Source of the DNA: Roridomyces roridus
Taxonomy: Eukaryota; Basidiomycota; Agaricomycetes; Agaricales; Mycenaceae
DNA: 64,000 nucleotides
Assembly: GCA_029378245.1 (NCBI GenBank)
Contig: JARKIF010000015.1
Coordinates: forward strand, 992,001 to 1,056,000
Reading direction: 5' to 3'
In this document: positions 28,438 through 61,150 of the stretch, piece by piece
How positions within the stretch are numbered: position 1 is the first letter of the stretch
Layout: the number at the start of each line of letters is the position of its first letter
The notes under the pieces: model-generated
Told to the model about the DNA's origin: nothing
What the model saw: only the letters and a program-made list of their open reading frames with translations
Database searches by the model: none
Program-made: the position numbers and the translations under genes

Positions 28438-28599
28438 TTACGCCACGACGCACCAAGCGACAGATGTGCCGCTTCCTGGCTGCTCCTCATTCACCGGCAG
28501 TCCACCAGAGCTCAGCTCGGATGTGGAGGCAGCGTCGTCGGAGACGAGGATGGTCTCGGAGGTGGGGTAGAGGCTTTCGAGGGTGATGAAAGAGTCCAT
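28438..28599 (-). CDS. Mating pheromone precursor P1 (CaaX = CVVA)
   Basis: A 53-residue frame starting MDSFITLESLYPTSETILV and ending GSGTSVAWCVVA-stop. MDSF at the N-terminus, a small acidic precursor and a C-terminal Cys-aliphatic-aliphatic-X box are the hallmarks of basidiomycete lipopeptide pheromones. The Cys would be farnesylated, the last three residues removed and the peptide cut out of the precursor, probably after the NEEQ region. A TATAAAG (28705-28712, minus sense) lies about 105 bp upstream, with an ACAACAATGG box at 28721-28730. Found by reading for CaaX motifs; too short for routine gene callers. Confidence 0.88.
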   Translation of the reverse strand: MDSFITLESLYPTSETILVSDDAASTSELSSGGLPVNEEQPGSGTSVAWCVVA

Positions 28600-30231
28600 G
28601 TTATGCGTGGGTTAAGCGCGATGAGGAGCAGTTATGTGTATAGTGGCTGGGGAGCTGGGGTTGGTGGGGCGAGTAGGTGAGGAAGAAGTGAGGCGCGTCC
28701 CTGCCTTTATACCCGAATTTCCATTGTTGTACATAATGGGACAGAAAGGCCATTCGGCAAGATCAGAGGCCAATTTGATGGGCCATTGTTCGCTGATTTA
28801 CAATTGTTCGGCAAAGTGGACTGATATCCCCGGGCGTGGCACGGCGTAAAAATTTCCAGGAATGCCCGCAGGATTTTCTTATCGGAAATTCCGCTGGGAG
28901 AACACCAAGACCCGGTCGACGGTCATCACCTTTCCATTGTTCAAATTGCCGATGTTTGTTGATGCGTGGTCACATCGAACAATGGGTCACACATATTGTC
29001 ACACCTTCCTCAACCAACTCCTGGTCCTCCGACGCTTGGCCCGCATTATGAAAAGAAAAGCGTTTCCTCTAGATCTGCGAGGCGGGCATGGACGGTCAAT
29101 TTTCTGATCGTGATTGGTTGCTTGTCGATGCCAATCACCAATGGGTCACAGCTGTCACACATTTCTGATTCGCACTCTCATGGTCCTCATGGCCGTTTGG
29201 GCTGCTGGCCATTGTTCGACCTCGATTATGCGGCAACGTGGTATCAGACACACCGCACCTTGCCTGTCGCCTCCCGGCCTCGCCCACTCGATGGAGCTGT
29301 TAGTGACCAGGCCAAGCCGCCAAGATGAAATTCTGAAGAATCACGACTCACGACCCCGTGGTTAATGCTCGTCCCCGTTCGCGGCGTGTCTCTCTGTCGA
29401 TGTACATGTGTCGTGTCTCATCTTCCGCTCGCGTCGAAAGATATTCGGGGTCGAAATGCAAGACTCGGAGGATACGATTGCAGAGTCGATCGCAATAGTT
29501 AAATACTACCCTGTGCTTACTCGCGATCATTCCATAATCTGGCCATGGGCCATGGCGGCCCTCCAACAACAAGCGTGGCATTCCCCTGTTGTCCTTTTTT
29601 CTCCATGTCGGCCGCCCAACATTTTCTCTTCGCGTATTTGCTCACGACGATCCCAAGCCGCGAGTTCATGCTCTGCAGCGCGTTCATACCGAGGAACAGT
29701 TAGCGGGTTATGCACCGTTTTGGCGTCAAGGACAGTAAGCCCAGAGTTCGATTCAGCTGGTGTCTGCCGCGTGAAGTTTCCCATGAATGCGGCCACGTTG
29801 GACGTCCAAGTCCTGGCCGTGGCCTTCCCAAAGCCAGCTCAATCAATGGGAATCGAGGCGAATAATGAGATTGAAATGAATCGTGTGCTACTGATACAGT
29901 AGGTAGAGCGAGTGTACACGAGCACGACCGTTATAGGTAAGTGCACCAAAGTGGAGCGGTAAACAGTAATGAGTGGGATGGGCCGAATAGCGCCGATGGA
30001 GAGGATAATGATAGGTAAAAGGAGGCATGTGTCAGCTTGCAAAGCGACGAATATCTGGATGCCAAGTCAGCTAGGAAGGGAAAGGAGGGAAGAGAGCAGC
30101 GCTTGCCGATGGGATTGAGAGTTGTGGAGGGAAGAGTACGAACATTGAGGGAAGTATTCGTTGTTGGGTAATCTTGGGGGAAGGATGAGCAAGGGGAAAC
30201 AAGGTAACAAGTAGGGTTGAGTACCAGATGG
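28600..30231. other. Intergenic region of mating sub-locus 1
   Basis: No gene recognised. It carries five further CCATTGTT or AATTGTTCG-type boxes (28783-28792, 28801-28810, 28934-28943, 28976-28985, 29209-29218), far more than elsewhere in the window. A 164-codon frame (29408-29902) has no recognisable domain. A degraded pheromone or receptor gene could lie here but I find no CaaX end. Confidence 0.4.
28721..28810. promoter_or_regulatory. P1 upstream: HMG-type boxes plus TATA
   Basis: CCATTGTTGT at 28721-28730, CCATTGTTCG at 28783-28792 and CAATTGTTCG at 28801-28810, all upstream of P1. The core AACAATGG fits the HMG-box consensus WWCAAWG. That these respond to pheromone signalling is inferred from their recurrence upstream of every mating gene here. 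Confidence 0.6.
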
Positions 30232-30402
30232 TCATGCAATGACACAGAAGGCGACGGCGTCGCCAGCGCCAAGGCGCTCGAAATCGAGGGGAAGGTCAAC
30301 GTCCCCGGCGCCAAGGCCATGGGAGACATCGACCGCGGACGCTTCACCCGCAACAGTAGCGGTGGTGTCAAAGGTAGCGGGGAGTGAGGTGAAGGAGTCC
30401 AT
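30232..30402 (-). CDS. Mating pheromone precursor P2 (CaaX = CVIA)
   Basis: A 56-residue frame from MDSFTSLPATFDTTATVAGE to GAGDAVAFCVIA-stop. The CVIA prenylation box and the LPLDFER site before the last 13 residues fit a precursor cut after Glu-Arg to give LGAGDAVAFC as the likely mature core. It is transcribed divergently from receptor 1 (starts 358 bp apart). TATAAAG at about 30503-30509 and CGAACAATGG at 30526-30535 (minus sense) precede it. It shares the PLDFE context with P4 in the other sub-locus. Confidence 0.9.
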   Translation of the reverse strand: MDSFTSLPATFDTTATVAGEASAVDVSHGLGAGDVDLPLDFERLGAGDAVAFCVIA

Positions 30403-30502
30403 CGGTGAGTGAGTGGAAGACGGTTTGGGGCTAGGCTGCTAAGAGCGAGGTGGTCTGAGGTGATGAGGGTAGGTGAAGAAACGAGGCGTTTAACCGAGCT
30501 GA

Positions 30503-30685
30503 CTTTATACCCGCCTCGCTTTGGCCCATTGTTCGCCTGAAATAATGGTACACGAGGTTCGGTCCAAGCAGGGTCCAAGAGACGGGATCAAAGTTGGTCC
30601 AAATCGGGTTTGTTTGTGCTAGTTTGGTTCCATTGTCCTTGCTCTCATTGTCGCCCTCGCCTTTGTCTTCGCCACACTATAAGAG
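30503..30685. promoter_or_regulatory. Shared divergent promoter of P2 and receptor 1
   Basis: The 357-bp gap between the two start codons contains CCATTGTTCG at 30526-30535 (for P2), CCATTGTCC at 30630-30638 with a second CATTGTCG at about 30647 (for receptor 1), a TATA box for P2 near 30505 and TATAAG near 30678 for receptor 1. A head-to-head arrangement implies co-expression. Confidence 0.65.
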
Positions 30686-30759
30686 ATGGACTCCGAGATG
30701 TCGGCAACGCTTTCCCTCGCCCCTCCGACCTCTCCCATACCGCCCGCAACGATATCATT

Positions 30760-32496
30760 ATGTTCGACCCACTTTACCCACTCTTCTCCACCTGCTCCTT
30801 CCTCGGCTTCGTTCTCGTCCTCATTCCCCTACCTTGGCATCTCCAGGCGTGGAACTCGGGGACATGCTTCTACATCATGTGGTCGGCACTTAGCTGCCTC
30901 AATCAGTTTGTCAATTCGGTGGTTTGGGCAGACGATATGATCAATAGAGCACCTGTGTGGTGCGATATCTGTGCGTCCTCTTGTTTTCCCGATTTTTCGC
31001 CCACGAATGAACCATCTGCCAGCCATCCGAATTACCCTCGCCGCCTCAGTGGGCATACCGGCTGCATCGCTCTGCATCAACCGTCGCTTGTACCAGATCG
31101 CCAGTGTAAAAACCGTCTCGGTCACTGTAGCTGATGTACGTGCTTTGCCACACAAGTTTCTCCCAAGCCTCGCTCACCGTGTCTTCAGAAACGCCGCGCC
31201 GTCTTGATCGACACGCTGATATGCGTCGTTTTCCCTCTCGTTTACATTGCTCTCCGTATGTGTTCTCACGGCTCGGCGTCCCGCTTCTACTCACCTTGGT
31301 TATTCTCAGAATATATCGTCCAGGGACATCGTTTCAATATCTACGAACAGATCGGCTGCGCCCCCGCGCTCTACAACAGCGTCCCCTTCTATTTCATTAC
31401 CCTCATGTGGCCGCCCCTCATCGGGATCACGTCCGCTACATACGGGATCCTCTCCTTGCGGGCGTTTACTCGCCGCCGCGCCGCTTTCTCCCAACTACTC
31501 TCTGCGCACAGTTCCCTCACCGCCGGTCGCTACCTGCGCCTAATGGCCCTGGCTGCGACAGACATCCTCCTCACCACTCCCCTCGGCATCTTCGCGATCG
31601 TGATGGACGCCGTGACCACACCGATCCTACCGTGGATCTCCTTTGCCAACACACACCTCGATTACGGCCGCGTAGAACAGATTCCCGCGATATTCTGGCG
31701 TTCGTCCCCGCTGGGCACGATTCCGCTCGAGTTTACTCGCTGGACGGCACCCGCCACCGCCTTCATTTTCTTTGCCTTCTTCGGCTTCGCCATCGAGGCC
31801 CGTAAGAACTACGCCCTCGCCTTCGGCGTCGTGTCGTCCGCCTTCTGGCGTGTCCTTGCACGTCTGGGCGTCCGCCGCCCTTCGTCGGGTTTCCTGGCAG
31901 CCAAGTCCACTTCTTCCTCGCGGGGTATGGGCTACCCCAAGCCCGAGCCTTCCAAACGCAGCGCGACTGCCACCGAGGACATTTCCCTCCCCGCCTACTC
32001 CTCCGCTGCCGGTACTGGCTCCTTCACCGAGTCCTTCGCCTCCGTGGCGGACCTCAAACGCTCCTCGTCCTTCGCTACGCAGGGTTCCACCTCTTCCTAT
32101 ACAGCGTCGCCGTTCGTCGAGGAGGACGGGAAGCTGGTGGACGAGGAAAAAGCCCTGTCGATCCACGAGGCGCTCTCCCTGCCCCCGCGCTCTCCCTCGC
32201 CTTCCTCAGCGTACATCGTCCCACATCCTGCTACCGATCCAGTGACACCCGACACTGCGACGTCCTTCGCCACCTCGACGACGGAGTACGTCCTCCCATT
32301 ACACGTCGGCTGGCACGAGCACCCTTATCCCGTCGATACGGGCGTGTTCTTGGAGGATGATGGCGGCAGTATCAGTGGGAGCAGTACCGCGCACTCACCC
32401 ACGTCAACGACGTCCTCACAACAACAACAATCGCGATTCAGCTACCCTCAAACACAATACGAGCAACAGTCGCGCGGGCCGCGCTCGCTCGTCTGA
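30760..32496 (+). CDS. STE3: STE3-type pheromone receptor 1
   Basis: Exons 30760-30970, 31023-31135, 31189-31255 and 31310-32496 sum to 526 codons (525 aa). It is a seven-transmembrane G-protein-coupled receptor. TM1 is FSTCSFLGFVLVLIPLPWHL, then WNSGTCFYIMWSALSCLNQF, the RAPVWCDI extracellular motif, IPAASLCINRRLY, RRAVLIDTLICVVFPLVY, FYFITLMWPPLIGI and FIFFAFFGFAIEARK before TM7. This is the fungal STE3 (farnesylated-pheromone receptor) pattern. The long cytoplasmic tail (about residues 310-525) is Ser/Pro-rich with a Gln run, as expected for desensitisation. Exons 2 and 3 (113 and 67 nt) are identical in length to those of receptor 2. Neighbouring pheromone genes argue for a mating-type receptor rather than a non-mating STE3 homologue. 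Confidence 0.93.
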
Positions 32497-34781
32497 TATG
32501 TCTTGTCCCTGCCTCATCCTCCACTCCCTTGATTATCCTTATACGACCCCACCACGACTCGACTCTTATTCCCATCTCCATCTCGATGATGTGCCCGCGA
32601 CGACCCCCCTTTCACTTTTCCACGTCCGCATGCCACGCAATAAGTACACTACAATAAAATCCACTGTATCATTAGCCACTCCCTCGCTTTTCTTTTCTTT
32701 GCTTTGTTAGCTCTAGTTCTAGCGTAACGCTCTTTTTTTGTCTTCTTTTTACGCAGTCTGGATGAATGAATGGATTTGTTTTCGAAATGTGCTTCAGATT
32801 GAGTTGAAGGAGATGAGACTTGAAAACGAGATGGGCATGGGATGACGGGGAGCAGGTCTGGGACTTTTTTGGCCCGTTATGGAAGGTGCGCGTCCATATC
32901 GGGACAGCTCTGCCTTTCCAGCCGGCATATCTGAGCCCTCGTTAACACGCCTCGTAGTATACTATCAAAGTACATCCCTACACAGGAAGATCGTGTGGAT
33001 TAAAGCGAAAGGTACGTGAGTATGTAGGTAGGAGACCGGGCAATGGCTAAACTGAATAGCGTAGTGGTGTAGCTAGCAGGACCGGGATGAGCCGCGGCAG
33101 ACAGTCTGCATAGTCCTCGTCCTGATCCTTGTCCAGAGGTCTTCCGGAGGGGCTGACGAGGGCGGCGTAGTGATTGAGCCCGGACTGAGAACTGATTCAG
33201 GCAAGATTCAGGTGAGGACGAGTGATTGACTGCTCCGCAAACCAATCGCGCCATCTTGGTCTTGAAAACCCGACGAACGGCCGTAGACGGTCCTCGAGTA
33301 AAGTATGACTGCGGAAGGCTGGGGTTGGGGCAAGGCGGGGGGACACCGCAGACCACGACCAAAGTGTATTTAGGAGTCGGACAGCGCTCTTGTGGGCGAG
33401 AGCTGACCGGCGAGGCGGGGAAGGGCGGGGGAGAAGTAATGAGATCCGGGCAGAGGGAAATAGTAGTAGCACATAAGTGGTCCGGCAGGGAAACGAGGCT
33501 CTGGATTCTGGGTACCGCACTGGCTCGGTACGTGGTGACCGCGTCGACACTCCTAGAGATGTGATCAGAGGATCGAGGGTCGGATAGTGCTTGACGATAC
33601 TCGTCCCGTACGTTGCGTGTTCCTCAGGCGCGGGCATCGCGTCCGCGTCCGCTGGAAGCCAGAATCAAAAGCTTGATCTGTACTGGATAACGATTCCGAC
33701 GCACGACAGGGCAAGACAGATGGCGTTGCGAACCTCCGCTTGACGCAAAGGTCATCTTGGACTCGGTCATCTTGGCCCGGAAAACATGAAGCGAGTAAGA
33801 CAGACGTGCAGCTGGGGAAGATAAGAACGATTTTTCAATCGGCAAAGAATGGAGACGTACCTGAGTCCCGCTAACCAGATTTGGTCTCGTTCTGACGCCC
33901 TCGTTTTCCGTTGGCACGAGACAAAGACTCCTCCTTAGGCACCCGCACCTCACCGACGAAGTTTGCCCATACCCGCCGTGAATTTGGTGGTTGCCAGGCG
34001 GAGCAGTGGAGAAAGTGGATGTCGAGAAAGACGGAAAAGAACGAGGCTTGGATGTGTGTGTCGCCGGGAAAGATGAAAGCGACGAGGAGGGTCGGGAGTG
34101 CCAGCCCACCGTTGTATGGGTGCTTTGGATACATGTGAAAGCTCGAGACTTGGGCTGCATGTAGCGGATGAGTATCTGCCCGCGGGTCAATGAAGGACGG
34201 ACAGACGCACCACAAGTAGTGTTGTGAAGCTGGGCTCGAAAGACAGACAAGCTAGTACTTTTTGCGACAAAGCTCGTCGAGTGGCCATGGATGCGATACA
34301 TGAGACCCGTTCGAAGCCCAGGCGCTCAGCGCTGAGCGTCCGAGCCAGAGACGACGCAGAAGAGGGTGGGGAGCAGCCACCTCTTTCGACATCTGCTCCT
34401 TTCGAATCGGAATCGGGATACGCCCACACAGTACTTGTTTCACGCAATCGGTGAGAGAGTTATCGGGCATGCTGACGGGACAAGTGCGGTGCAAGGAGGT
34501 CTATAACGGTCTTCAGGGCGTCAGTGCACTCGCTCTGAGACGACGGGGTGGGGACGCACCAAAGACCTCGGGAAACTCTCGCTATTCATCGACATCGCAG
34601 GATGTTAGAGGACGAGTAGTCGGTCCCGATGAAATTGATAGACAGCGATGATAGTGGGAGGAGCAAGCAAGCAGGACGGCGATCAAAAGCTCTTGTCCTC
34701 TCCCATCGTCCCAAGGTAAAGCCTCCAGCAACGCTATTTGCTCCCCAAGTACTGTCTCACAAAGGTATCTTGACAGTCAAA
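32497..34781. other. Intergenic; decayed block similar to 23.5-23.8 kb
   Basis: Minus-strand sequence 33840-34150 resembles plus-strand 23470-23840, including a splice-like border, so both may be relics of one gene. On the minus strand, a frame at 33197-33637 reads MPAPEEHATYGTSIVKHYPT but has no known domain. Nothing certain to annotate. Confidence 0.4.
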
Positions 34782-37661: not shown

Positions 37662-38020
37662 ATTGGCTACGCACCTATAGCGCGCCTCGGCCCTGCGATG
37701 TTAATGTATCTGTTTGAGGTTAACCCCCACTGACTGCGCCGGCTTTCTCTCAGAGAAATCAGGGCATTCATGATTCAGAGTCGGGCTCAGGCCATTTATG
37801 GCCTATGTGCCAACTTCGCCCGACTCTCCGTCCCCGCCCATTGAAGGGAGGCTGCAGGGGAGAAAAAAAAACCCTCGTGGGGAACGAAGCGCTCCGGGCG
37901 GCGGTTGACCCTCGGGCGCCTCTTAACTCCGATTACATTGGTAGGAGTGCCCCTTCGTGGTTAGATCGTCCCCCTCGGCGATTTCGGCTGTGCGCCGGGC
38001 GGGAGCTTGTGGCACCAGTC
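37662..38020. other. Intergenic, nothing recognised
   Basis: About 360 bp between the F-box stop and the duplicated ARM promoter; no repeats or coding signal seen. Confidence 0.4.
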
Positions 38021-38293
38021 GTATTTCCATGCATCATGCCACGATTCGGCGCCAATCCATTCGGATGGTTTTGTGGCTGATTCCGGTTTTTGAATCCTCA
38101 GCCTTCAGGCTGTACTGCCATAAAGCTGTGTGTCGTCCTCTTTCCTCTTCCCTCCACACTCCACCCCCCACCCTTCCTCTACCATGGCGGCCTTGCCACG
38201 AGCAGAAACCCGCGGTAGCTTGGCCAGCTGGTGGTCCGACAGCAACCCCCTGGTGGTCCAAGGCCCGACAATCAATATTCACGCGCTGGCGAA
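38021..38293 (+). pseudogene. Duplicated promoter and exon-1 fragment of ARM gene F
   Basis: Nearly identical to 50869-51129, including the leader (CATCATGCCACGATTCGGCG), the ATG at 38184 and the first 36 codons (SLASWWSDSNPLVVQGPTIN). It breaks after GCGCTGGCGAAG, where gypsy polyprotein sequence begins. Only a 12-bp leader indel and a 2-bp indel separate the copies, so the duplication is recent. From this ATG the frame continues for about 45 unrelated codons and stops; it is out of frame with the integrase, so no fusion protein is made from it. Confidence 0.85.
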
Positions 38294-39938: not shown

Positions 39939-40470
39939 ATTATTGCATGTGAACTTAGATCCCGAATTTAGGGGTCTCGAAAATTTTGTCGGGACTTTGG
40001 TCCCCACCGCCGACAGAAATCTTGTCGGGATTCTGGCTCTGAGTTCAACCTAAATCTCTCGATGTCGGGACCCCGGATCAGAGTTCAATATGTCAAATCA
40101 AGCCAAAATCACCAAAAAATCGCCAAAAAAATCCCTGAGCGCTCTTCCGGCCGGTTTCAACACGAAATTCTTTGATAGCCTCCGAGCCGTGGCGTGGGAG
40201 CTGGAGCCACAGGCTCGAATCTCGATGATGGACGATTGATGGACGAACAATGGGCTAATGGTTACTGTGCAGTCGTGCCGCTGCAGTGCCGATGTCGGGA
40301 CTTTGCATTAGACTGGAGTGTCAAGCAACTGACCATTGTCGGGACTTTGGATCAGGGTTCACCGGCCGCCGGACCCCCTTTGTCGGGACTCTGGCCCATA
40401 GTTCGACGGGCCATCCGGGCAATTTTGTCGGGACTCAGGATCTAAGTTCACACAGCATAATCACCGGTCC
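39930..40470 (+). mobile_element. MITE, CAGGACCGG family, copy 1
   Basis: 541 bp with long inverted ends: GGACCGGTGATTAT...GTGAACTTAGATCC at the left, and the complement GGATCTAAGTTCAC...ATAATCACCGGTCC at the right. The interior repeats the phrase TGTCGGGACT many times. It also carries CGAACAATGG at 40244-40253. Left flank GTCAAACA is the partner of TGTTTGAC at 40816-40823, not of its own right flank, which shows the inversion described under findings. Confidence 0.9.
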
Positions 40471-40478
40471 TGTCCTTC

Positions 40479-40815: not shown

Positions 40816-40825
40816 TGTTTGACTA

Positions 40826-41366: not shown

Positions 41367-41368
41367 TG

Positions 41369-42010: not shown

Positions 42011-42050
42011 AGGAAGCGTGGCTCGGGATGACCGCGTGGGATCGATCATC

Positions 42051-42077
42051 GGAGGGCGGGTGTAAGGGATCACGCAC
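42051..42077 (+). repeat. Polypurine tract and first 17 bp of gypsy 3' LTR
   Basis: GGAGGGCGGG directly precedes TGTAAGGGATCACGCAC. The LTR is cut here by the Mutator-like element, and its remainder starts at 47190. Confidence 0.75.
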
Positions 42078-47912: not shown

Positions 47913-47913
47913 C

Positions 47914-48398: not shown

Positions 48399-48399
48399 A

Positions 48400-49795: not shown

Positions 49796-50262
49796 TGGCG
49801 GTGTACCAAAGATAAGAGTTCAGTACATCACCTCAAATTTTTTATTTCAGCCAAATTGGCTGACCCTCCCCCCCTCTATAAAAGGAAATTTCCTTTTTGG
49901 AATGCATCAAATCAGCTTATTTTGGGTATTTTGGCCCGCCTGCTCCCTGTACATGCTTCCAAATGGCTTCTAGTGCATTCCCTTAGCTCTGGAGCCCAAG
50001 ATTGGGGTTTTGGGCTAAATTCTGAGTTGATGAGGCTCCTCATGTGACCAGGGCACGTGACTATCTGGACACGTGATCAATTCGGGACCATGTATTGAAA
50101 AATTTGAGAAAGTCCACTGGGACTCTGTTCAGTGGTCTAGCTAAGCAAACAGAGCCTTCCCGGTGTTCTGTAGAAATTTGGTACAAAACTTTTTTTCAGC
50201 CCTCAGAGGGACCCCCCTCCCCCCTCCTATAATAGGCAATTCCTTATCTTTGATACCCCTTG
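49796..50262. mobile_element. MITE, CAAGGGG family, copy 2
   Basis: Collinear with 8443-8908: GTACCAAAGATAAGAG at the left, CCCCCCTCTATAAAAGGAA, CTCTGGAGCCCAAGAT, CTATAATAGG and TTATCTTTGATACCCCTTG at the right. The left outer terminus has diverged and no target duplication is visible, so this is an older copy. Confidence 0.8.
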
Positions 50263-50812
50263 CAGCAGCAGTGGAGCCAAATTCCTGTCCAGGAATTCAA
50301 CTGTGTCGTCCATGGGTATGAGGGTACACATTTGATCAGCACCAGCATACATCACAGAGTTCAAGTCATTTTGAATGCCACTAATTTTCCTAATTTTCCT
50401 GAGGGCTGGCATACACATTGATGCAACTAGGTCTGAAGCTTCAAACAGACCTACATTGCAAAGACCCAGCACCTTGGGTGAACCTGGAATGAGCTAATCA
50501 CCAAAGCAAGAAGATCAACAATATTATATGCACTATTGGATATGGGAGCTCATCTATGCAGAGTGAAATTCAATTTCAACAACTAGAAGTGTACCCGCAA
50601 AATACCAGAGCCTAGAGGGCTTGGTGAAAAATTGGAGGCTCCAGAGCAAAAGGAAAAATGAGCTGATGGGAGCTGTCAAAGTCAGTGAGTGTGGCCGCAA
50701 AACGGAAATGCACAGCCGCCATAATCAAAAGTCTGAATTTTAGTGAAAACCTACCGCAGAATTTGGCACAGCACAATTTGAAAAGAACAAGAACTTAGCA
50801 AGTAAGTTCTCG
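50263..50812 (-). repeat. Dispersed repeat Y, copy 2 (inverted)
   Basis: Bases 50640-50812 are the reverse complement of 17318-17490, ending in the same hairpin (GAACTTAGCAAGTAAGTTC at 50791-50809). Its edge lies only about 60 bp before the duplicated promoter block of ARM gene F. Confidence 0.6.
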
Positions 50813-51018
50813 TAATTTGACCCACCCAATACCCCACACAAGCGCGCAAATTCTTTTTGGCCACCACTGTATTTCCATGCATCATGCCACGATTCGGCGC
50901 CAATCCATTCGGATGGTTTTGTGGCTGATTGTAACCCTCAGGCTGTACTGCCATAAAGCTGTGTGTGTCGTCCTCTTTCCTCTTCCCTCCACACTCCACC
51001 CCCCACCCTTCCTCTACC

Positions 51019-52708
51019 ATGGCGGCCTTGCCACGAGCAGAAACCCGCGGTAGCTTGGCCAGCTGGTGGTCCGACAGCAACCCCCTGGTGGTCCAAGGCC
51101 CGACAATCAATATTCACGCGCTGGCGAAGCCGTTGATGAGGCGGATGTATCACCGACAGGCGTTGGCCTTCATTGCGCAGGACGTTCGGGGGCGGCCGCT
51201 CTCGGAGGAGATGATCGAGATCTATACAAGCTACTTGGCGTATGTGCACGGGTTTTCAGAGAGGGGATTTCCACTGATCGCTCTCAGATGCAAATACGTA
51301 TTCCTCGAGACGCAAGCCAGGGTTTTGGAGCACTTGGATGAGTGCTGGAGCTATGCCGGCGCTGTCGAACTGGCCCCAGAATTGATTCTGCGGATGTTGT
51401 GGGACAAAACCTTGAAACACAGAGCATACTCTTTGGCCAAGACACTGCTTGCGCACAAGTTAGGGGTGCCGAACCCTCAGATCGTGGAGGATGTCGTGAT
51501 TCAAAGGTCAGTCTTGGACTTACATCCCCGTGTGAGTTCTGATGACCCCTAGAGGGCATTACAACGAGACGGGGCTAGCTGAATCAATTCTGGGTGCGAT
51601 CTCCGAGAGCACCGAACCCACAACAATTTTGGTGGCATTGCTCAATTCGAAAGCCGGCCATGTCACCCGGTGGGCGTGCACCCTGATTACAAATTTGGCA
51701 ACACATCCTTCCTTCGTGGGGGCAGCCCTCCGGGACTCTGAACTTCTCATCGAAATGCTGCTCAACCTTGCGCGGCAAGTCTGCCTTCGCTATTGGCTCT
51801 TCACAAAAGCACTCATTCAATTCAACCAGGGGCCCGGACCTGGATATTTCCATCGACGCGCTTGGGGCTCTGATTCCCATTTCGCGGCACGACAGAGGTG
51901 CAGCGGCGATTGTCGCGACGAACAGACTCGGCACGATCTGGTACTCTGAATCCGTGAGAATGAACAGAGCAGCTTTCAATCTACTTGCGAGTCTCTTGGG
52001 AAGTGTAGTTCCTGGGGACCAAATTCTTGGTACAATCCCGATCGCTAGGTTGTTGGACCTTCTGCGGCAAGTTTCGATCATTTTTGTCTTTATTGACATA
52101 CGCTGAATTCTCGTCAAGACGGAGCATCAAGATACTTTTTCTTCGTCCAGTTGCTGAAGACAGGGCATGTTTAGGCGCAATTCTAGACGCAGATTGGCAG
52201 AGGGAATTCCCATCGTTGCTCACGAGTCAGAGCCATCATTTCACTGCGTCTCAGACTTGTCTCCTCATTGCAAGCATCGTCGAGCACGAACCCACAAGAG
52301 CAGACGACTTGTGGGAGGTCGCCACAAGAGAAATGTTCGGCGTACTCTGGTGAGTTCCCTTTCATTCTGTCTGCTTGAATTTGAGCGCCTGACCCAAGCC
52401 TGACCAGGGAAAAACACGTGGATCGCCAACGTCGCTATCACTGGGAACGCGGGCAAGTTCATCAAGCCATGGTTGCGCTGACTGCAAGGCAGCTTCATCA
52501 AACCATGGCTGCACTGACTGAAATCGCAAAGCACCCACGAGGTGCCCAGGCGGTTGCTGCAGCATGCACGAGCCAGCCAATATTGATGTCCTTCCTGTCC
52601 GGGGATGAGGGTCTCAGACCTACGGTTAGAAAATTATTCGATGTCCTGGCGGCGCAGGGAGGTGAAGTTGCATCCGACAACACGCCCAGCGAGGAGCTGA
52701 GGCTCTGA
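51019..52708 (+). CDS. ARM-repeat protein F, complete
   Basis: Six exons: 51019-51239, 51288-51506, 51553-51774, 51830-52066, 52119-52349 and 52408-52708. They total 477 codons (476 aa). The N-terminus is MAALPRAETRGSLASWWSD, then INIHALAKPLMRRMYHRQAL, followed by ARM repeats (LNSKAGHVTRWACTLITNLA, ALIPISRHDRGAAAIVAT, LTEIAKHPRGAQAVAAA). Introns 51775-51829 and 52067-52118 start GCAAGT; all introns are phase 2. Its leader and first 37 codons exist again at 38021-38293. It borders mating sub-locus 2 on the left, mirroring gene E beside sub-locus 1. Confidence 0.87.
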
Positions 52709-53491
52709 AGTAAATGCTTTGTTCACACCGCATACAGGATGATTTTGAACTCCCATTTGTAGGAGCCAAGCGGCTCCGTTGAGCACGTGTACAATTTATG
52801 GAACAGTTTCTTGACAATGACAGTTTCTGTAATTTCCCTTCTTTCGCGGGCAAATGTAACGGATAGACGCAAATGGGGTCGATTGGTCATGGGGGCCTCC
52901 TACACGCGCTCCCGAGGAACATGGCACGCGGCGGCGGGAATCACGCATCATTTGATGTCGGGAACTGTGAGATCACCAACGTGTTGACGCGTATTTGGCT
53001 GTCGTCGAACAATGGCACTCGCCGGGCTCTTGGAAAATTGAAATTCACGCAGAGTGCAGCGCGAGGACCCGAATAATCCCAATCAACTCGGTGGCGAGAG
53101 CGTCGTCTGGCCGAAGAAAATCTCAAGGGTGGCAGGCCCGGGCAAACTCCGATTCAGAGTTTGGAAACTTGAATGGTTCGAGCGAAATGGTATTCGAGAG
53201 ATGTATAGCGGAACAATAAGGATTGTGTAGTATGTATGTAGTCGAGGTACCGATACAAATGCTCATAAGTAGTGGGAAGGCGAAACGGAGAATACATGAC
53301 GGCGAATAATGATAGCAGAATTCGGGTTGGGTTGGGTTGAATGGGAAGCGGCGCGGCACTAGGCCAGCGGGGTGGAGGCGTCGATGCGATGCACTACTGC
53401 AAATCGCGTTCGACAGATAATAGGCAATGGTGCCTATGGAGGGAATCAGGACAAAGTCAATGGAGGAAGACAAAGAACGCACGGCGTGCAC
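52709..53491. other. Intergenic between ARM F and pheromone gene 3
   Basis: About 780 bp, convergent 3' regions. One CGAACAATGG box (53006-53015) is present away from any start codon. No gene recognised. Confidence 0.4.
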
Positions 53492-53644
53492 TCATGCGAT
53501 GACACACAATCCCGTATATCCCTGGGCTTTGGTATCCGAGTCTACGAGCGGGCTCCCGTCAATGATGGTGTGCTCGTCAGCGGACGGCAAAAGGATGGCG
53601 GTCTCGTCGAGAGACGCGATGAGGGTGAGGTCGAAGGAGTCCAT
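53492..53644 (-). CDS. Mating pheromone precursor P3 (CaaX = CVIA)
   Basis: A 50-residue frame starting MDSFDLTLIASLDETAILLP and ending KAQGYTGLCVIA-stop. The features of a prenylated basidiomycete pheromone are present: MDSF start, acidic precursor, CVIA end. The mature peptide would be the last ten or so residues before VIA; the cleavage site is probably near DTK. It is divergent to P4. Upstream (minus sense) are TATAAG near 53751 and CCATTGTTCG (53784-53793). Confidence 0.9.
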   Translation of the reverse strand: MDSFDLTLIASLDETAILLPSADEHTIIDGSPLVDSDTKAQGYTGLCVIA

Positions 53645-53744
53645 GGGTGTGATGTGCGGGGCAGTGAAAGTGGTTTGAGTGCGGGGTGGGCAAGGTGGGT
53701 GGGTGGAATGCAATTTGTGGAGCCTCGTGCGAGTGCAAAGAGGC

Positions 53745-54083
53745 TCTTATAGCCTACCCGGCGGCCCACGTTGTTTGGTTCAAACGAACAATGGAATTGA
53801 TGCGCAATTGTTGTCCCATCAATTTGTTCGGTTGACGGCGAATTGCTTTTGTTCGGGCGGGTGGCTGTTGAGACTGCAATACAGGGCAGCTGAGGCATCG
53901 AATGAAGTCGTATACAAGTCCCAGCAAGGAGAAAGAATACTAGTTCAAGTTGTTGAAACTTTCGACTTGTTTGCCTTTGCTTTGTTCGCGGCTCATTGTG
54001 CACCTAATCGAGAAGACGGGACTCTTTGTTCCCGCACAATCGGTACGCGATTCTACCATTGTCCTTTGCCGAGGGGTATAAAG
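53745..54083. promoter_or_regulatory. Shared divergent promoter of P3 and P4
   Basis: CGAACAATGG at 53784-53793 and several AATTGTT / TTTGTTCGG repeats (53803-53830) lie on the P3 side. CCATTGTCC at 54056-54064 lies 13 bp before TATAAAG (54077-54083) on the P4 side. The start codons are 556 bp apart. Confidence 0.6.
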
Positions 54084-54199
54084 ACCCTCGGCCGAGACGG
54101 ACATCCCCGAAAACGATCTCACTAATACCGTCATCATCCACTCTCGAGCATTTGCAACCCAAACATCCTCCTCTCTCCTACCAACCACACACACATCTA

Positions 54200-54405
54200 A
54201 TGGACAGCTTCACCACCATTGCCCTCGAGTCCACCGGCGGCCCGCCTCTCACCAACTCGCGCTGATGCCGCATCCCGGCTCCGCGCCCCACTCGTCCATG
54301 TCCATGTCCGCCTCCGCATCCGACTCGGATTCGGGCGTCCCACTCGACTTTGAAGTGCAGGGAGGAGGCTCGGGCGGCCAGTCGTTTTTCTGCGTCATTG
54401 CATGA
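54200..54405 (+). CDS. Mating pheromone precursor P4 (CaaX = CVIA), frame broken
   Basis: The ATG at 54200 opens the usual MDSFTTIALESTGG but stops at TGA 54263-54265. The CaaX part lies in another frame: it opens with an ATG at 54265, overlapping the stop as TGATG, and runs 46 codons to GGSGGQSFFCVIA-stop at 54405. VPLDFEVQ before the last residues matches the LPLDFER context of P2, so the 3' frame is clearly pheromone-like. Either a one-base indel broke a single precursor of about 67 residues (allelic pseudogene or sequence error), or the overlap allows re-initiation. Upstream box and TATA are intact. Confidence 0.75.
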
Positions 54406-54539
54406 TGCTGTCAGAGCAGTCGATTCCGAGTACCGTTGATTCATACCCGTGCGTCCCTTCTTCCCATCCTTCTCGATTCCATTCTTATTCAACGTCTTAC
54501 ACACTGGGACTGTTGAGATTCACTTATCCTGCCGCGCCA

Positions 54540-55530
54540 GGCTGCAGATTTCGTCCGCGTCTTCATGAACCATCATTGTATCCACCGTCGCCCAGCGACC
54601 CACTCTCTTTATCATTATCTACCATTGCTCTCTCTTCATAAATACCACACAATGTATACAATCTACAATCTACAATGCCATTGTACTCTCCCGAGCCACA
54701 GTTGAACAATGGTGGATTGAGATTCAGACTCCGCATTTTGGTAGCCAAATAAACATCAACAAATCGATGTCAGCAACGTCGCCCGACCGTCGACGCTGTC
54801 GCCACCGATGCCCTCGCTGCTTGGTCGACGTATCCCAGCAGACGTGTCGGACACCATCGCATCGACCATGAACGCCCATCGACGTCTCACACCCCTCCCC
54901 AGTATCGATTCCCCGACGCCGTGATGCCCCTTGTCCATAAAAGCCCTCCGCTGAGGGGAGAGGGCAGGGACGGATGAGGTCGGTGTTTCAGGCGTGTGCT
55001 TGCCGCCGCATATGAGCTGGGCACGCTTCTGCTGCCTGTATGCCTCCCTTCAAGACGTCACACGACATGAGGCCTTGAGGGCATATCCGATCAGACTGAC
55101 TGACCTGCCAATCCTCCCGATTCTCCTTGTACTGACCGTTTCCCGCTGCAGGCCCTTGACGGGGAACGCACCTTGCGCACCGTTCGTCTTCTCACTACCC
55201 GGGTTTCGCAATGGGAGTTTGGGATGCAGGGCACGAGGGCGGTCTCGTACAGATATCCACAATGGTGTGTGGCCTACGTCCCTGTCCTTCGCTCCCACTT
55301 CTTGACTCTCCGCTTCGCAGTCCGTTATGTAGTATGTTCGTCGCACAGCAATGCTACCCACACGCCTGGCTCCAGGACGTGCTTGCCTCACCGAGCCTGA
55401 TCTCCACACGTCCGAGTCTCTACTTCTTCGGAGGCTCTTCCGAATGAACCCTCTGTTTCGGCTTTACCGTAAAGCGTGAACAATTCATTGACATTTCGCG
55501 GCGTCGTCCATTGTCTTGCTCTCCGGGTCG
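54540..55530 (+). repeat. Segmental duplication Z, copy 1
   Basis: Collinear with 58357-59358 at clearly more than chance identity: AGGCTGCA(A/G)ATTTCG, TACAATGCCATTGTACTC, GAACAATGG, GTCGCCACCGATGCCCTCGC, CTGGCTCCAGGACGTGCTTG and CATTGACATT(T/C) are all in the same order and spacing. Each copy contains an inverted pair of CCATTGT/AACAATGG boxes (54668-54713). Small frames in both copies are not conserved between them, so it is not clearly a gene. It lies between P4 and ARM gene G. Confidence 0.75.
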
Positions 55531-56159
55531 AGGAGAACTGTTGTGGCTGCCGTTGTCCCTCCATCCCAGTAGCCTCGTCGGCCAGATTTGTGAAATCCAT
55601 AGTGTTTCAAGTTCCAGCAAAGTTCCAGTCTTCCAGCGCGCACAAATGTCCTTCCTTCCACCAGCACTGCGGCTTTATTTACTACCCCTGACACCGCCTG
55701 CGGAATGGACTTCTTGGGCGCTTATCCGTCGATTCGGCTCCATCTATCTTTCTTGAACATGGATCATGTCGCTGGGTTGGAGGCTCACAAGAGGCTCAGG
55801 TCCAGGCTGTGGATTCGCTGTATTTCTTAGCCAATGCTGGAACTATTCTTCTCATTACCTCCGCTCCCGCCTATTCTTGGCTCCAATCAACACCGACTGG
55901 TCTAGCAGCTGCCCAAAATTAGAGGGCTGGCAGTGTGCGTCGCTTCTCAGACGCTCGGTCCCACCACTACAGATCATGTCCCTGGAAGCTGTAGAGGGTC
56001 GTGCTGCCACTCACTCTCCGCCTTCACCCCATTCCCATGACCGCACGCTTTCGCCCGGCGCTTATCCTAGCACATGCATCATGTCACTGAGCTTCGGTGG
56101 ACTGTACATTTGCTCTAGATAGAGGGCTGTGCGTCCACTCCTCCCTCTTCCCGCATCCC
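55531..56159. other. Upstream region of ARM gene G
   Basis: About 630 bp with no gene recognised; presumably the promoter of G. No known motif seen. Confidence 0.4.
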
Positions 56160-58166
56160 ATGCCAGCTCTTCAACGCCAGGACTCTCGTCCCAGCATTCA
56201 TAGCTGGTGGTCTGATAGCAACTCCTTGCTCCACTCTGGCCCAACGATCAACCTTCATGCGGCCGCGAAGCCGTTGATGAGGTTCATGTACCACCGGCAA
56301 GCTCTTGGCCTGATCGAGTCGAATCGCGCGATACGGTTGTCTCAACCTGTCTTGGAGGACCTCTCGTCCTATCTGTTGTGGGTCTGAGCCCTTTCCGAAA
56401 CGATACTTGTGTTTTGACTCGACTAGATGCAAATACGTATCTCATCGCACGCAATGGACGGTCCTCCAGTATCTCAACTACCGCGCTCGGTGGCACGATG
56501 GCGAAGCACAAGAGATATTAAACTCCCCCGTGCTGGATCACATCCCTCAACTGTTGGTCGATGAGAATCTCCGGGAGTTGACGATTTCTCTACTCGAAAC
56601 TTTGCTCGCCCGCACTCTCGGCAGATCGATGCTGTCGATCCTGGAGCCTAACACGTCCGAGTACCTTCTGCGCGGGTGCGTGCCAACCAGCCCCACCCCT
56701 CTCTTCCGGTTGTTTAATTTTCTTCAGTGATGATCCCAAGTCCCAACACGACATTTGCCTGGAAGTTACGGCGGTATTGGCTCGCTACGCCAGGCATCCG
56801 CAGGGCGAACACCCTTTGCTGCAACTCCTTGAATCAAACCGGGGTCATATGAGATGGTGGGCGTGCAAGGTCATCATTTACTTCCAGGACGCACCTGAGA
56901 TGGAACGTTGGTTTCCGGCAACAAAGTTGGTGAAGCTCTTACGGCGAGTGCAACCTTCTCCCGTTTCACCATCTTCACTGAGTTTTATGTACAGAGATGA
57001 AGATGGCGATGTTCGTGACCAAGCAACGTACGCTCTGGCTCGAGCATTCGAACGGCGTCCAGGAATTGCAGCACCCATCGTCGCGGCTGCTACACGCGAG
57101 AATTCTGTGAAAGAGTTATGCGCAGGTTTTGCGAGAAAGCAACATTCCTTGGCACTGTCTATTCTTTTAGATCAGATTCCGATGAAGAATTGGCTGGATG
57201 ACCTGAGGCAAGTCGAATATTTGCCCCGCAACAGTGTTGAAACTTTTCTGTAGCAATATGGATGAAGCTCTCGTCGAACAAACGCTCCGCAAGTTAATTC
57301 GAGTGTCACAAGACTGTGGTGGCTCCGATGCGCTCCGCTTGGCAGGCATACAGGACCATCTTCCACAGTTACTCTCCGGCGAATCAGCCTCCATCCGATC
57401 TCGCACGTGTGAGCTGGTCGACAATTTACCTGGATATCATACATGGGCACCAGATATGTTACCCACGCTCCGCGGGCTTTCGAAGTATGTTTGTTCGCCC
57501 TGGCCCCATGAATACACACTAATCTTCCGCCTCAAACAATCAGAGACGACAGCGAACCCGCTGCTATCGAACTCGCTTATGCCCTCAATCAAATGACCGA
57601 ACACCTTCATTCGGTAGGAGCGGGAGCCACGATTCTTCTAGGCACAAATATTCTCAAGGACGGCCCTTCTCGCCGTTCGCAGCGCGTGGACATCCGATAC
57701 CCCCTCCGCAACTTGATCTGGACTCTGGTGAAGCACAACTGTACACATTTTGCATGCGACCCCCAGATTTGCTTGGCTCTGAAATCCGTAATTGATGCCC
57801 TTGTGGGTGCTTTGCCAATCCAGGGGCTGCTAGACTTTGTCAGGTCAGTTCGATTTTTTTCTATCCCGGAAAGTTCAACGCACTGATCGAATCTGTGATA
57901 GAAGTCAGAACGTTGAAACTGTGAAGACAGTGGCTCAAACACTAGTTCAACTTTCCCGGTGGCCAGGTGGCGTGGAGGCTCTGGTCACTTCTCCCGACTT
58001 TAATCGACATCTCTCTGGACTCTTCGCATCGCCCACCCGAGAGGTCCACCGCTTAGGGTGCATGATAATGGAAAACATGACACGTTACAACTTGCGGATA
58101 CATGTTTACCCCGGAATTGTGGATGAGAAGTACGAAGGGCCATCCGGCCCATACCCCTTAGCGTGA
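56160..58166 (+). CDS. ARM-repeat protein G, complete
   Basis: Seven exons: 56160-56377, 56427-56675, 56728-56943, 56995-57207, 57254-57484, 57544-57843 and 57902-58166. They total 564 codons (563 aa). The N-terminus has SIHSWWSDSNSLLHSGPTIN and LHAAAKPLMRFMYHRQALGL; ARM repeats follow (VTAVLARYARHPQGEHPLLQ, ALARAFERRPGIAAPIVAAA, VAQTLVQLSRWPGGVEALVT). Introns 56944-56994 (GCGAGT) and 57208-57253 (GCAAGT) are GC-AG. It sits inside mating sub-locus 2, between P4 and receptor 2, and is flanked by the two copies of duplication Z. Closest relatives in the window are fragment C and gene H. The last exon lacks the final module present in C and H. Confidence 0.87.
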
Positions 58167-58356
58167 CCCGATGCCACAGAGTGTTTGCCAAGCATGCGGC
58201 GGTCGTCCCGGCGGATAAACCGACATTTCGGAGGCATGGCTTAATTCTTTTTAGTCAGCTTATTTTTGTTTAGTCCAATTCGCCCAACGGCTTCTCACAG
58301 ACGTCGCCCATACTTCCACTAATATATGATTGGCATGCATTCATTGTGCACTGCCA

Positions 58357-59358
58357 GGCTGCAAATTTCGCCCGCTTCGTACTTGATCCCGTGTATCTAC
58401 CACTACCAGCGACTCTCTTCATCATTATTTCCACTCAAATTTGACTCAAATACAATGCACTTTACACTCCTACAATGCCATTGTACTCTACCAAAGCGAC
58501 CGCCACTTGCAGTCGAACAATGGTTGATTGAGATTCAGACTCCGCATTGTTCCGTGGTGGCCAAATAAACATCAACAGATCCTTGTCAGCAACGTCGCCC
58601 GACGCTGTCGCCACCGATGCCCTCGCTGCTTGGTCGACGATCCCAGTCGACGTGTTGGACACCATCGCCTTAACTATGAACATCCCATCGACGTCCCACA
58701 CCGCTCCCCAGTCTCCACTTCCCGACACTCGTGGATGCCCCTTCTCGATAAAAGCCCTCTGCTCCGTGTGACTTGGCTCGTCGACGCTCCACACGGCTTC
58801 CGACTTCATTGTACCCGCTGGCTGTTGAAGGCATGAGCGGCGCCAACGGCTGCGGGCACAGGGGGACAAGACGAGGTCCGGCATGACGGCGCATATCCGA
58901 TGAGACTGACGAGGGCATGCCGGTGTGTATCCTCCCTCCCTCCTCCCTCCTCTCCTTGCACTATCCCAACCTGACCGTTTTCCGCTCCAGCCCTTGACGG
59001 GACTGTACCTTGCGCACCGCCCGTCTCCTCACTATCCGGGTTTCGCGATGGGAGGTTGGGATGCAGGGCGGGAGGGCGGTCTCGGAGAGATATTTACAAT
59101 GGTGTGTGGCCTACGTTTCTGTTCCTTGCTCCGAGAGTTCCTGACTGTCTGTTTCGCAGTTCGTTGTGTAGTATGTCCGTCGTAGTACCAATGCTACCCA
59201 CACGCCTGGCTCCAGGACGTGCTTGCCTCCCCGAGCCTCATCTCCACCTGCCTTTACGTCTCCCGGATGGACCCTCCGTTTCAGCTTTACCGTAAACAAT
59301 AAGCAGTATACGCATCATTGACATTCGGGGCGTCGTCTATTGTCTTCCTCTTCGGGAC
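58357..59358 (+). repeat. Segmental duplication Z, copy 2
   Basis: Second copy of the block at 54540-55530, directly upstream of receptor 2. It contains the box pair CCATTGTACTC (58478) and CGAACAATGG (58514-58523). A plus frame 58547-58771 (ATDALAAWSTIPVDVLDTIA) is open here but broken in copy 1. Confidence 0.75.
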
Positions 59359-59509
59359 AATTCGCGGTCCCCGCTGCAAGCTCTCCTCCTCTCCTCTTCC
59401 TCCCTCTCCTCCGCTACCAGTATTGTGGCGCTTGTGGCTCGCCTTGAGCGCTTGAGCACCATTACGGCTCGGAGCATCACACCTCGGTGATGGCGGTGTT
59501 TCGGCCATC

Positions 59510-59602
59510 CCATTGTTCGATCGGCGCTTGCGCTCGGCCCTCGGTCACATAATACGCTCTTATTGTAATTGTTCGCCATGACTTGTATTTCTTCTTTTTA
59601 TA
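59510..59602 (+). promoter_or_regulatory. Receptor 2 promoter: HMG-type box and TATA
   Basis: CCATTGTTCG at 59510-59519, AATTGTTCGCC near 59566 and TTTTTATACC near 59596 precede the receptor 2 ATG (59652) by 142, about 85 and 55 bp. Confidence 0.55.
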
Positions 59603-59651
59603 CCGGACCAAACGGCATCCGCTCTTTCCCTTTCCCTCTCCCACCACCGTC

Positions 59652-61150
59652 ATGACCTACGCCGAACTCTACCCTCTCTACCCCGTCTTTGCCTTCATCG
59701 GCTTCGTCATCGTCCTCATTCCCTTACCCTGGCATCTTCAGTCGTGGAACTCGGGGACGTGCCTGTTTATGATATGGACCGCGCTCGCCTGCCTCAATAA
59801 TTTCGTCAACTCTATCGTGTGGCACGGAAATGTCGTCGACTGGGCACCCGTTTGGTGTGATATTTGTGCGTCACCCGTCGTGCATTTTGTTTTCTTGCTG
59901 ATGGGATATGCAGCGACTCGATTTGCTGTCGGTGCGAATGTAGCTATCCCAGCTGCGTCGTTGTGTATCAACCGTCGGTTGTATGTCATCGCGCGGTGCA
60001 AGTCGGTGGGAGTTACCAAGGCGGAGGTGCGTCGTGACTCGAGCTTCGTCCCTGCAGTCTAGCTGATCTTTTGCACAGAAACGTCGCACGATAATGATAG
60101 ACTGCGCCATCGGCATTGGCATTCCTCTCTCTCAGATGGTTCTACGTGCGTCGACCGCCTCTTTTCGTAGTACCATGCTCATTTTTTCACAGAATACATC
60201 GTCCAAGCTCACCGCTACACTATACTCGAGGATATTGGGTGCTTCCCCAACACGTTCAACACTCCTTTAGCCTACCTACTCACCTACCTATGGCCAAACA
60301 CCATCGCGCTCCTGTCTGCCTACTACTGCAGTACGTAACAATACCTCGTCTTCCCCAACGCTTGAATCTAACATTCCACCCAGTTCTCTGCCTCCGCGAA
60401 TTCAACCGCCGCCGCGCCCAATTCGCCTCCATCCTCAAATCCTGCTCCACCCCAAATCCCTTTTCCCCGTCCTCCCCAACGGCCCCAGCATTCACCCCCG
60501 CCCTAAGCCCCAGCCGCTACTTCCGCCTCATGGCCCTCGCCACTCTCCAACTCACATTCAACACCCCCGTCGCTGCGTACAGCGTCTACAAACTCCTCAC
60601 CAACAAGCAGATGCAGCCGTGGATCTCCTTCTCTGCTACGCACGCGCATTTCAGCGAAGTCGATCGACTGAATTCGGCTGTGTGGCGCGCGGATACGGGG
60701 AGGGAGGTTACGGTTGAGCTGGGGAGGTGGACGGATGTTTGGTGTGCGTTTGTGTTTTTTGCGTTCTTTGGGTTTGCGGAGGAGGCGAGGAGGTGGTATG
60801 TGTTGGCGTTTGGCAGGGTGCGGAGGAGGTTTGGGATGGAGAAGGTGCGATTGCCGTGGGGAAGCAGCAGCGGCAAGGGGTCGCAAAAGGAAGAGGCGAC
60901 GCCCGTCCTCCCTGTGTACCTCCCGCCGAGTCCCGGGAAGGGAAAACATTATCCTCACTCCCACTCCCATTCCTTTGGGTCGTCACTTCCGGCGTACGAG
61001 AAGACCCTCCTCGCTACACCCGAGTCGTCCACGACACAATTACCATTGCACGATATCGAGCTCGGTGTGCATACGCCCTCACCGACGCCCTCACCGATGC
61101 CCTCGACGCCGACGTCGGCTAATTTCCTCCTTTCCCAGTCGAAGGCGTGA
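59652..61150 (+). CDS. STE3: STE3-type pheromone receptor 2
   Basis: Exons 59652-59865, 59914-60026, 60079-60145, 60193-60330 and 60384-61150 give 433 codons (432 aa). It is a seven-transmembrane pheromone GPCR with clear relation to receptor 1: FAFIGFVIVLIPLPWHLQSW, NSGTCLFMIWTALACLNNFV, APVWCDI, IPAASLCINRRLYVIARCKS, KRRTIMIDCAIGIGIPLSQM, YIVQAHRYTILEDIGC, SRYFRLMALATLQLTFNTPV and FVFFAFFGFAEEARRWYVLA. Introns 1-3 are at the same positions as in receptor 1; the fourth, after YYC, is extra. The tail is shorter and ends PTSANFLLSQSKA. It binds a farnesylated peptide of the opposite mating type and signals through a G protein. Confidence 0.93.

Follow-up and report, generated by a model that had tools for sequence, protein, structure and literature searches.

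The 64,000-nucleotide stretch of Roridomyces roridus DNA that we analysed (the window) contains two STE3 receptor genes, R1 and R2, together with pheromone precursor genes, arranged in two clusters separated by 21.0 kb between the end of R1 and P3. An earlier note on this DNA had described two STE3 receptors in two clusters about 21 kb apart, a description borne out by spliced models and Pfam STE3 matches. The assembly holds both haplotypes, so that a test of polymorphism between nuclei could be run here; the contig carrying the B locus in the window is referred to as C57 and that of the second haplotype as C456.

In cluster 1, two single-frame pheromone precursors lie on the minus strand: P1 (28438..28599, 53 aa, MDSF...AWCVVA) and P2 (30232..30402, 56 aa, MDSF...PLDFERLGAGDAVAFCVIA with a CVIA end), scoring 41.4 and 34.4 bits, respectively, against the Pfam 'Pheromone' family (PF08015, cut-off 22 bits). 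R1 (30760..32496, plus strand; PF02076, 356 bits) has four exons (30760-30970, 31023-31135, 31189-31255 and 31310-32496), and its 525 aa product is that of an NCBI Roridomyces roridus protein (P0001; 100% identity over 100%). The first 334 residues of R1 had no match among PDB sequences at E <= 1.

Cluster 2 comprises P3 (53492..53644, minus strand), a single frame of 50 aa (MDSF...YTGLCVIA) that is identical on C456 and scores 16.4 bits against PF08015, under the cut-off; P4 (54200..54405, plus strand), a frameshifted precursor; and R2 (59652..61150, plus strand; PF02076, 334 bits), a 432 aa receptor identical to an NCBI protein (P0121) and encoded in five exons (59652-59865, 59914-60026, 60079-60145, 60193-60330 and 60384-61150). 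Both receptors have exons of 113 and 67 nt, R2 has one intron more, and P2/R1 and P3/P4 are divergent gene pairs, all as previously described. The 113-nt exon is not specific to mating receptors, since it also occurs in the receptor pair C458_1931k / C312_204k, which has no pheromone ORF in the 10-kb stretches scanned.

Four pheromone genes with frames of 50–67 codons had been claimed; P1, P2 and P3 are intact, but P4 is not a 67-codon frame. More specifically, its MDSF frame (54200-54265) runs for 21 codons to a TGA at 54263-54265, and the CVIA frame (54265-54405, 46 aa) has its first ATG at 54265; on neither haplotype do the MDSF start and the CVIA end share a frame, the stretch being identical on C456. 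A spliced P4 was considered and rejected: no GT-AG intron of at least 30 nt joins the two frames, and only GC-donor solutions were found. The C-terminal half scores 28.7 bits against PF08015. Re-initiation at the overlapping stop and start (TGATG), or some other route, may still lead to the CVIA frame.

The window has six CaaX ORFs of 25–110 aa, where 60 first-order resamples average 1.4; three of the six start with MDxF, for which the resamples have a mean of 0.08 and a maximum of one. A genome-wide PF08015 search returned seven matches at E <= 1, six of which are above the cut-off and correspond to P1, P2, P4 and their C456 counterparts P1', P2' and P4'; P3 was not detected at this threshold on either haplotype. 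Four ORF fragments around the locus had no Pfam match. Homeobox_KN, sought because the HD (A) locus is unlinked to the B locus in a tetrapolar species, has eight matches, none on C57 or C456, in an assembly whose contigs are not chromosomes and whose A locus is unannotated.

To place the receptors, we used a quick tree with SH-aLRT support only, drawn from 42 of the 235 homologues listed. R2 falls in the Rcb3 group, 16 rows (SH-aLRT 98) that include all four Coprinopsis Rcb3 alleles used, which points clearly to a grouping with functionally defined mating receptors. R1 and its C456 counterpart R1' are sisters (98) within a group of ten Mycenaceae rows (99), and the wider group of 29 rows around R1 includes Schizophyllum Bar (91, drawn open); the grouping of R1 with functionally defined mating receptors, which would run through this wider and moderately supported group, is weaker. 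Gene content and receptor tree support the claim of a B-type pheromone/receptor (P/R) locus. Across both haplotypes the assembly has 21 STE3 places, the nearest other one found on C57 being about 260 kb from R1. A scan of 16 of the 17 other STE3 places (one 10-kb stretch each; C7 left out) found no CaaX ORF of the cluster type, and only R1 and R2, among the places scanned, are flanked by CaaX precursors.

A comparison between haplotypes, along the lines proposed beforehand for compatible strains, found polymorphism in cluster 1. An identity profile and BLAST blocks delimit a diverged block at 28283..34271, in which identity is lowest over 28.3–31.9 kb, reaches 91–99% over 31.9–32.8 kb (the receptor tail and just beyond) and is 85–90% over 32.8–34.3 kb. 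The gene order on C456, P1'-P2'-R1', is the same as in cluster 1, and both pheromones are different: 18 of 52 aligned residues are identical between P1 and P1', and 23 of 50 between P2 and P2'. Between R1 and R1', the seven-helix (7TM) region has a dS of 1.47, which is near saturation, with a dN of 0.14 and 238 of 300 residues identical; the C-terminal tail has 172 of 175 residues identical and a dS of 0.17. The allelic divergence drops off within the tail of R1. As a control, six further allelic receptor pairs from this assembly have dS values of 0–0.144. At the DNA level, cluster 1 is not alone in its strong divergence between haplotypes: diverged DNA was also observed beside the C458_1931k / C312_204k receptor (a 756-column piece at 70% and a 4.2-kb piece at 87%), which keeps 282 of 293 residues despite the diverged adjoining DNA.

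With 21 STE3 places in the genome over both haplotypes, R1 and R2 might be thought to be non-mating STE3-like receptors. The restriction of flanking CaaX precursors to these two, the exceptional allelic dS of R1 and the grouping of R2 with Coprinopsis Rcb3 all speak against this reading, which we consider extremely improbable.

Cluster 2 presents the opposite picture. Sublocus 2 and its flanks (49800..64000) are 99.747% identical to C456:226631-240842 over 14,218 columns, and the 7TM region of R2 has a dS of 0 between haplotypes (324/325 aa), so that no polymorphism was found in this single pair. The mating-type specificity previously proposed for the locus is supported by the sequences of cluster 1, whose C456 counterpart is a replacement or a highly diverged version, but finds no polymorphism to support it in cluster 2. 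Every block from 34.3 to 64 kb has a similarity of 99.4–99.8%, and the right flank is collinear over about 30 kb. The left flank is not collinear: window positions 1–20.8 kb match C456:185001-200000 only in short repeats, and a DNA search with this flank returned its own place plus scattered partial and repeat matches. This break, along with an inverted match of C456:3.0-6.5 kb to C57:762.5-766.0 kb, would be compatible with C57 and C456 being paralogues that arose by duplication of the locus, or an assembly artefact, instead of alleles. We regard this as very unlikely because of the collinear right flank at 99.4–99.8%; furthermore, the same two-haplotype pattern is found in other contig pairs, and the divergence drops off within the receptor tail as it would between alleles. 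C57 and C456 probably represent the two nuclei of one dikaryon.

With no polymorphism of sublocus 2 here and one broken pheromone gene, this sublocus could be non-functional or fixed. Cluster 1 alone might then determine mating type, cluster 2 (R2, P3 and the broken P4) being a fixed or decaying former sublocus; the near-identity of cluster 2 and of R2, the frameshift of P4 on both haplotypes and the sub-threshold Pfam score of P3 are what such a history would leave. The blocks over 34.3–64 kb are, however, equally similar, so the identity of cluster 2 is accounted for by common descent of the segment, with no loss of function required. R2 is moreover intact and grouped with the Coprinopsis Rcb3 receptors, and P3 is intact and linked, and on balance we judge sole determination by cluster 1 to be unlikely, if still worth weighing. 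A mating role for cluster 2 is suggested by its gene content and by the grouping of R2; its identity on the two contigs fits, but does not prove, a second sublocus with the same allele in both nuclei.

The reading we favour is that this region is very probably the B (P/R) mating-type locus of R. roridus, a small bonnet mushroom of the Mycenaceae, with two subloci, the first heteroallelic and the second common to both nuclei. Each sublocus would encode a seven-helix receptor of the STE3 type and small precursors, which would be trimmed and lipid-modified at the cysteine of the C-terminal CaaX to give peptides of about 10–13 residues. After fusion, a peptide from one nucleus would activate the receptor of the other and thereby the B-regulated part of dikaryon formation, while no match is expected between a peptide and a receptor that belong to one allele. 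For the present dikaryon, the difference would lie in sublocus 1 (P1, P2, R1 versus P1', P2', R1'), the sublocus 2 allele being the same in both nuclei; within the species, sublocus 2 is presumably multi-allelic. Lipidation, processing, specificity and B-pathway function are predicted properties of these gene products. The locus would be a clear case from nature of a two-sublocus P/R system in which a difference at one sublocus can be enough for compatibility. In Schizophyllum commune, the two subloci are redundant.

P/R loci of this kind are already known, and R. roridus adds a new member. In Flammulina velutipes (PMC5100862), two subloci with STE3 and pheromone genes likewise make up one PR locus, of which one may be common and the other different: strains have identical PR-a and different PR-b subloci. 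The subloci are 177–181 kb apart in F. velutipes versus 21 kb in R. roridus, where, in addition, P4 is frameshifted. A likeness to the B locus of Coprinopsis cinerea lies in the grouping of R2 with four Rcb3 alleles; that locus has three functionally defined paralogous P/R subgroups (PMC8305134), compared with the two clusters found here. S. commune (PMC8161036) also combines receptor and pheromone genes with further STE3-like genes that lack pheromones, but there brl1-3 lie around bar and bbr in a span of 81 kb, whereas on C57 the distance to the nearest other STE3 gene found is larger, as noted above. A literature search for Mycena, STE3 and mating returned nothing on Mycenaceae by title, and a wider search had no Mycena among the matches listed; the genes to type in this family are now named.

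Outside the B clusters, a dispersed family of pheromone-like precursors was found, with 30 places at E <= 1e-3 when the two haplotypes are counted together; ten of these were read. None lies within the two B clusters; two are on C57, the nearer one 40 kb from P1. Two peptide units were found in 4 of the 11 precursors read, for example ...TLPPTNADGGGGTSGQC-VVSK-EDVTLPPTNADGGGGTSGQC-VVA with near-identical units, and in the best-tested precursor the two units differ only synonymously (9/9 differences). Repeated CaaX-like units also occur in the rhodotorucine A precursor of Rhodosporidium, to which the two-unit precursors are likened by description. The same applies to the h-type precursor hpp1 of the ascomycete Trichoderma (PMC3068285). 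Among the literature matches listed, as far as their text was available, no two-unit CaaX precursor was found in an Agaricomycete, which is no proof of absence. Glycine-rich CaaX precursors that are not part of the P/R genes also occur in Coprinopsis, Laccaria and Agaricus, where the non-mating pheromone-like peptides have the consensus GGGSGNGAYC / GGGSGNNAYC (PMC8305134); GGGGTSGQC, a peptide that C57 and C124 both encode, is similar to these in make-up. Agaricus has four precursors of 44–54 aa, against the 30 places and two-unit forms of R. roridus.

For the many STE3 receptors without a mating role, the dispersed precursors offer candidate ligands. With less than even confidence, we hypothesize that R. 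roridus has amplified and dispersed farnesyl-type pheromone-like precursors, several with two units both kept by selection, and that these would serve as lipopeptide signals outside mating, supplying the ligands that the amplified non-mating STE3-like receptors lack. The genome supplies a concrete set of candidate peptides, GGGGTSGQC and DSSSGTSGQC among them. An orphan peptide at C105:37335 had no homologues by word search, a weak test for 53 aa. As to whether such peptides are shared by the two haplotypes, C114 and C334 both match the query at 100%, a single pair that is probably allelic.

In the Roridomyces roridus assembly (Mycenaceae, Agaricales; 90.8 Mb, 501 contigs), where the window covers C57:992001-1056000, the finding of a two-sublocus pheromone/receptor locus holds up, and the locus is of an ordinary kind. 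The spliced models of both STE3 receptors, R1 of cluster 1 (four exons) and R2 of cluster 2 (five exons), are identical over their full length to two NCBI R. roridus proteins, and both contain the common exon sizes of 113 and 67 nt that the earlier note had reported. Three of its four pheromone genes stand as intact MDSF...CaaX frames (P1 and P2 of cluster 1, P3 of cluster 2); P4 does not, leaving one intact gene fewer. P1 and P2 pass the pheromone cut-off of Pfam; P3 falls short of it. Such frames occur above chance: the window holds six CaaX ORFs against a mean of 1.4 and three MDxF ORFs against a mean of 0.08 (60 resamples). By eye, a PxD[SF]E- or PVNEE-like motif was read in five of the six distinct precursor frames of the B clusters on both haplotypes, its last E lying 11-13 residues ahead of the CaaX cysteine; the exception, P3, has LVDSD 10 residues ahead. 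Following the charged-dipeptide rule for precursor trimming, as quoted in PMC8305134, the trimming site would be expected at this motif.

P4 had been taken for a fourth one-frame pheromone, but its MDSF and CVIA ends lie in different frames. The MDSF frame runs for 21 codons to a TGA at 54263-54265, the CVIA frame has its first ATG at 54265, and no GT-AG intron of at least 30 nt linking the two was found. Because the stretch is identical on the second haplotype, the defect is either fixed or was inherited by both nuclei with a common segment. P4 is probably a pseudogene; alternatively, translation may start from the ATG at 54265, and a 46-aa frame keeps the peptide-encoding half (Pfam, 28.7 bits). 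About 1 kb on the 3' side of P4 (54536-55527) recurs upstream of R2 (58353-59356) at 77-80% identity, which suggests that sublocus 2 underwent an internal duplication long ago.

To compare haplotypes, the window was aligned to C456, a second-haplotype contig of 245,551 bases. Allelic divergence, which a mating-type-specific locus would lead one to expect, is found at cluster 1 and, in this pair of haplotypes, not at cluster 2, which lies within a 14.2-kb block 99.747% identical between haplotypes. Rightwards of 34,272, blocks are 99.4-99.8% identical, insertions and duplicated pieces aside. At 28.3-30.4 kb, forced alignment gives 38-59% identity per 300-base step, with no blast match longer than 150 columns between haplotypes, and the 7TM part of R1 is 59-77% identical in DNA. 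Identity is 91-99% at 31.9-32.8 kb and 85-90% from there to 34.3 kb; left of cluster 1, it is 86-100% at 23.2-28.3 kb and drops to 72% at 21.4-23.2 kb. Gene order and orientation are unchanged on C456 (P1', P2', R1'). Over the first 300 codons, R1 and R1' differ by a dS of 1.47 (one 60-codon step saturated), falling to 0.17 at codons 351-525. For other STE3 genes of this assembly, six pairs of alleles gave dS values of 0, 0, 0.067, 0.070, 0.131 and 0.144, which puts R1 roughly tenfold above the highest control. A simple contrast is tempered by other contig pairs, whose DNA identity ranges from 99.9% to 87%, and by one 756-column piece near another STE3 gene (C458_1931k) at 70%. The R1/R1' dN/dS of about 0.09 would fit two old functional alleles. 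Among aligned residues, 18 of 52 are identical between P1 and P1' and 23 of 50 between P2 and P2'.

In such loci, pheromone from one nucleus is non-self to the receptor of the other and activates it. The nuclei of the R. roridus dikaryon would differ at sublocus 1 and have sublocus 2 in common. Flammulina velutipes strains that have one common and one different PR sublocus are described in PMC5100862, a precedent that makes this arrangement ordinary.

A quick, midpoint-rooted tree with SH-aLRT support only was built from 57 receptors (42 of 235 listed homologues and 15 rows from R. roridus DNA; C458_1901k and C257_41k were flagged as long branches). R1 and R1' pair as sisters (98), and ten Mycenaceae receptors including them form a group (99). 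That group is nested in a larger, poorly resolved one of 29 receptors (91), which also holds Schizophyllum Bar and proteins carrying the annotation Rcb2. The 16-member group of R2 (98) includes all four Coprinopsis Rcb3 alleles in the tree. The STE3 Pfam search of the genome gave 48 exon matches, grouped as 21 places over both haplotypes: R1, R1', R2 twice and 17 others. Since 16 of these 17 have no CaaX ORF in one 10-kb stretch each (C7 lay outside the scan), only R1 and R2 are known here as pheromone-flanked. A diverged STE3-like group occurs on C57 (the window's contig), C456, C135, C223, C2, C489, C146, C79 and C7; the C146:534k model contains a stop codon. The receptor at C57:20875-21808, near the far end of that contig, shares 91% identity with C312_162k and is also closely related to C458_1904k.

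To the left of cluster 1 (window 1-20782 against C456:185001-200000), the haplotypes lack collinearity. In addition, a distant STE3-like gene is inverted (C456:2997-6541 against C57:762467-766022). Either the mating locus adjoins a rearrangement or the assembly is faulty here. Stretches at about 1.0-1.5, 6.3-6.8, 7.7-8.4, 20.8-22.8, 51.0-51.3, 56.1-57.4, 61.6-62.3 and 63.3-63.7 kb of the window are repeated; the corresponding parts of C456 each align with several of these stretches at about 64-86%. The ORFs at 51019 and 56160 have SWWSDSN..GPTIN.HA.AKPLMR.MYHRQAL in common, and four ORF fragments from this area gave no Pfam match. Judged by these likenesses, the stretches would represent repeated genes of one family, scattered among the mating genes. 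Elsewhere, homeobox genes lie at C491:2179301-2188557 and C63:34898. The C491 genes form two inverted 3.1-kb stretches, 100% identical to each other and only 70.5% (953 columns) and 87% (433 columns) identical to C63. They may be the A locus, either duplicated as a palindrome or misassembled.

More surprising than the B locus is a dispersed family of pheromone-like CaaX precursors outside its clusters, whose functional role is putative. Of the seven matches from the pheromone Pfam search of the genome, six lie at the B clusters; the seventh, on C146, is weak (19.2 bits, under the cut-off; MDTFTTLF...NYDSSKGTAGMCVIA). The search missed P3 on both haplotypes. At E <= 1, genome searches gave at least 16 matches for the C146 query, at least 28 for a C114 peptide and at least 26 for a C1 peptide; merged, they define at least 30 separate places at E <= 1e-3 when both haplotypes are counted, and none of the three match tables contains a B-locus pheromone. 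All 11 precursors read (10 of 30 places and a weaker one on C35) start with MD[ATV]F and end in CVIA or CVVA. One place, C57:980212-980382, lies 11.6 kb left of the window; others are C57:856715, C456:38491 and C456:104228, with more on C1, C113, C124, C135, C157, C105, C484 and further contigs. Six precursors were scored with Pfam and all stay under the cut-off (highest 21.0), so Pfam-based annotation would miss them. On C146, C57, C456 and C135, such a precursor and an STE3-like gene lie 32-93 kb apart.

Four of the 11 (C1:2945121, C1:947202, C57:980212 and C124:678008) carry two peptide units, and the C114 precursor retains a remnant of a second (VVCKED). The two 19-codon units of C57:980212 differ at nine sites, all synonymous; with nine changes, none of 100,000 neutral simulations left the peptide unchanged. 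The two 12-codon units of C1:2945121 show three synonymous differences and one amino-acid difference. Compared with each other over their whole length, these two precursors show weaker constraint (dS 0.74, dN 0.33). Between C57:980212 and C124:678008, 7 of 171 sites differ, all at third positions, leaving the protein unchanged. Together with the gene itself, 0.4-0.7 kb of sequence around C57:980212 recurs at eight further places (77-95%), in what looks like gene duplication.
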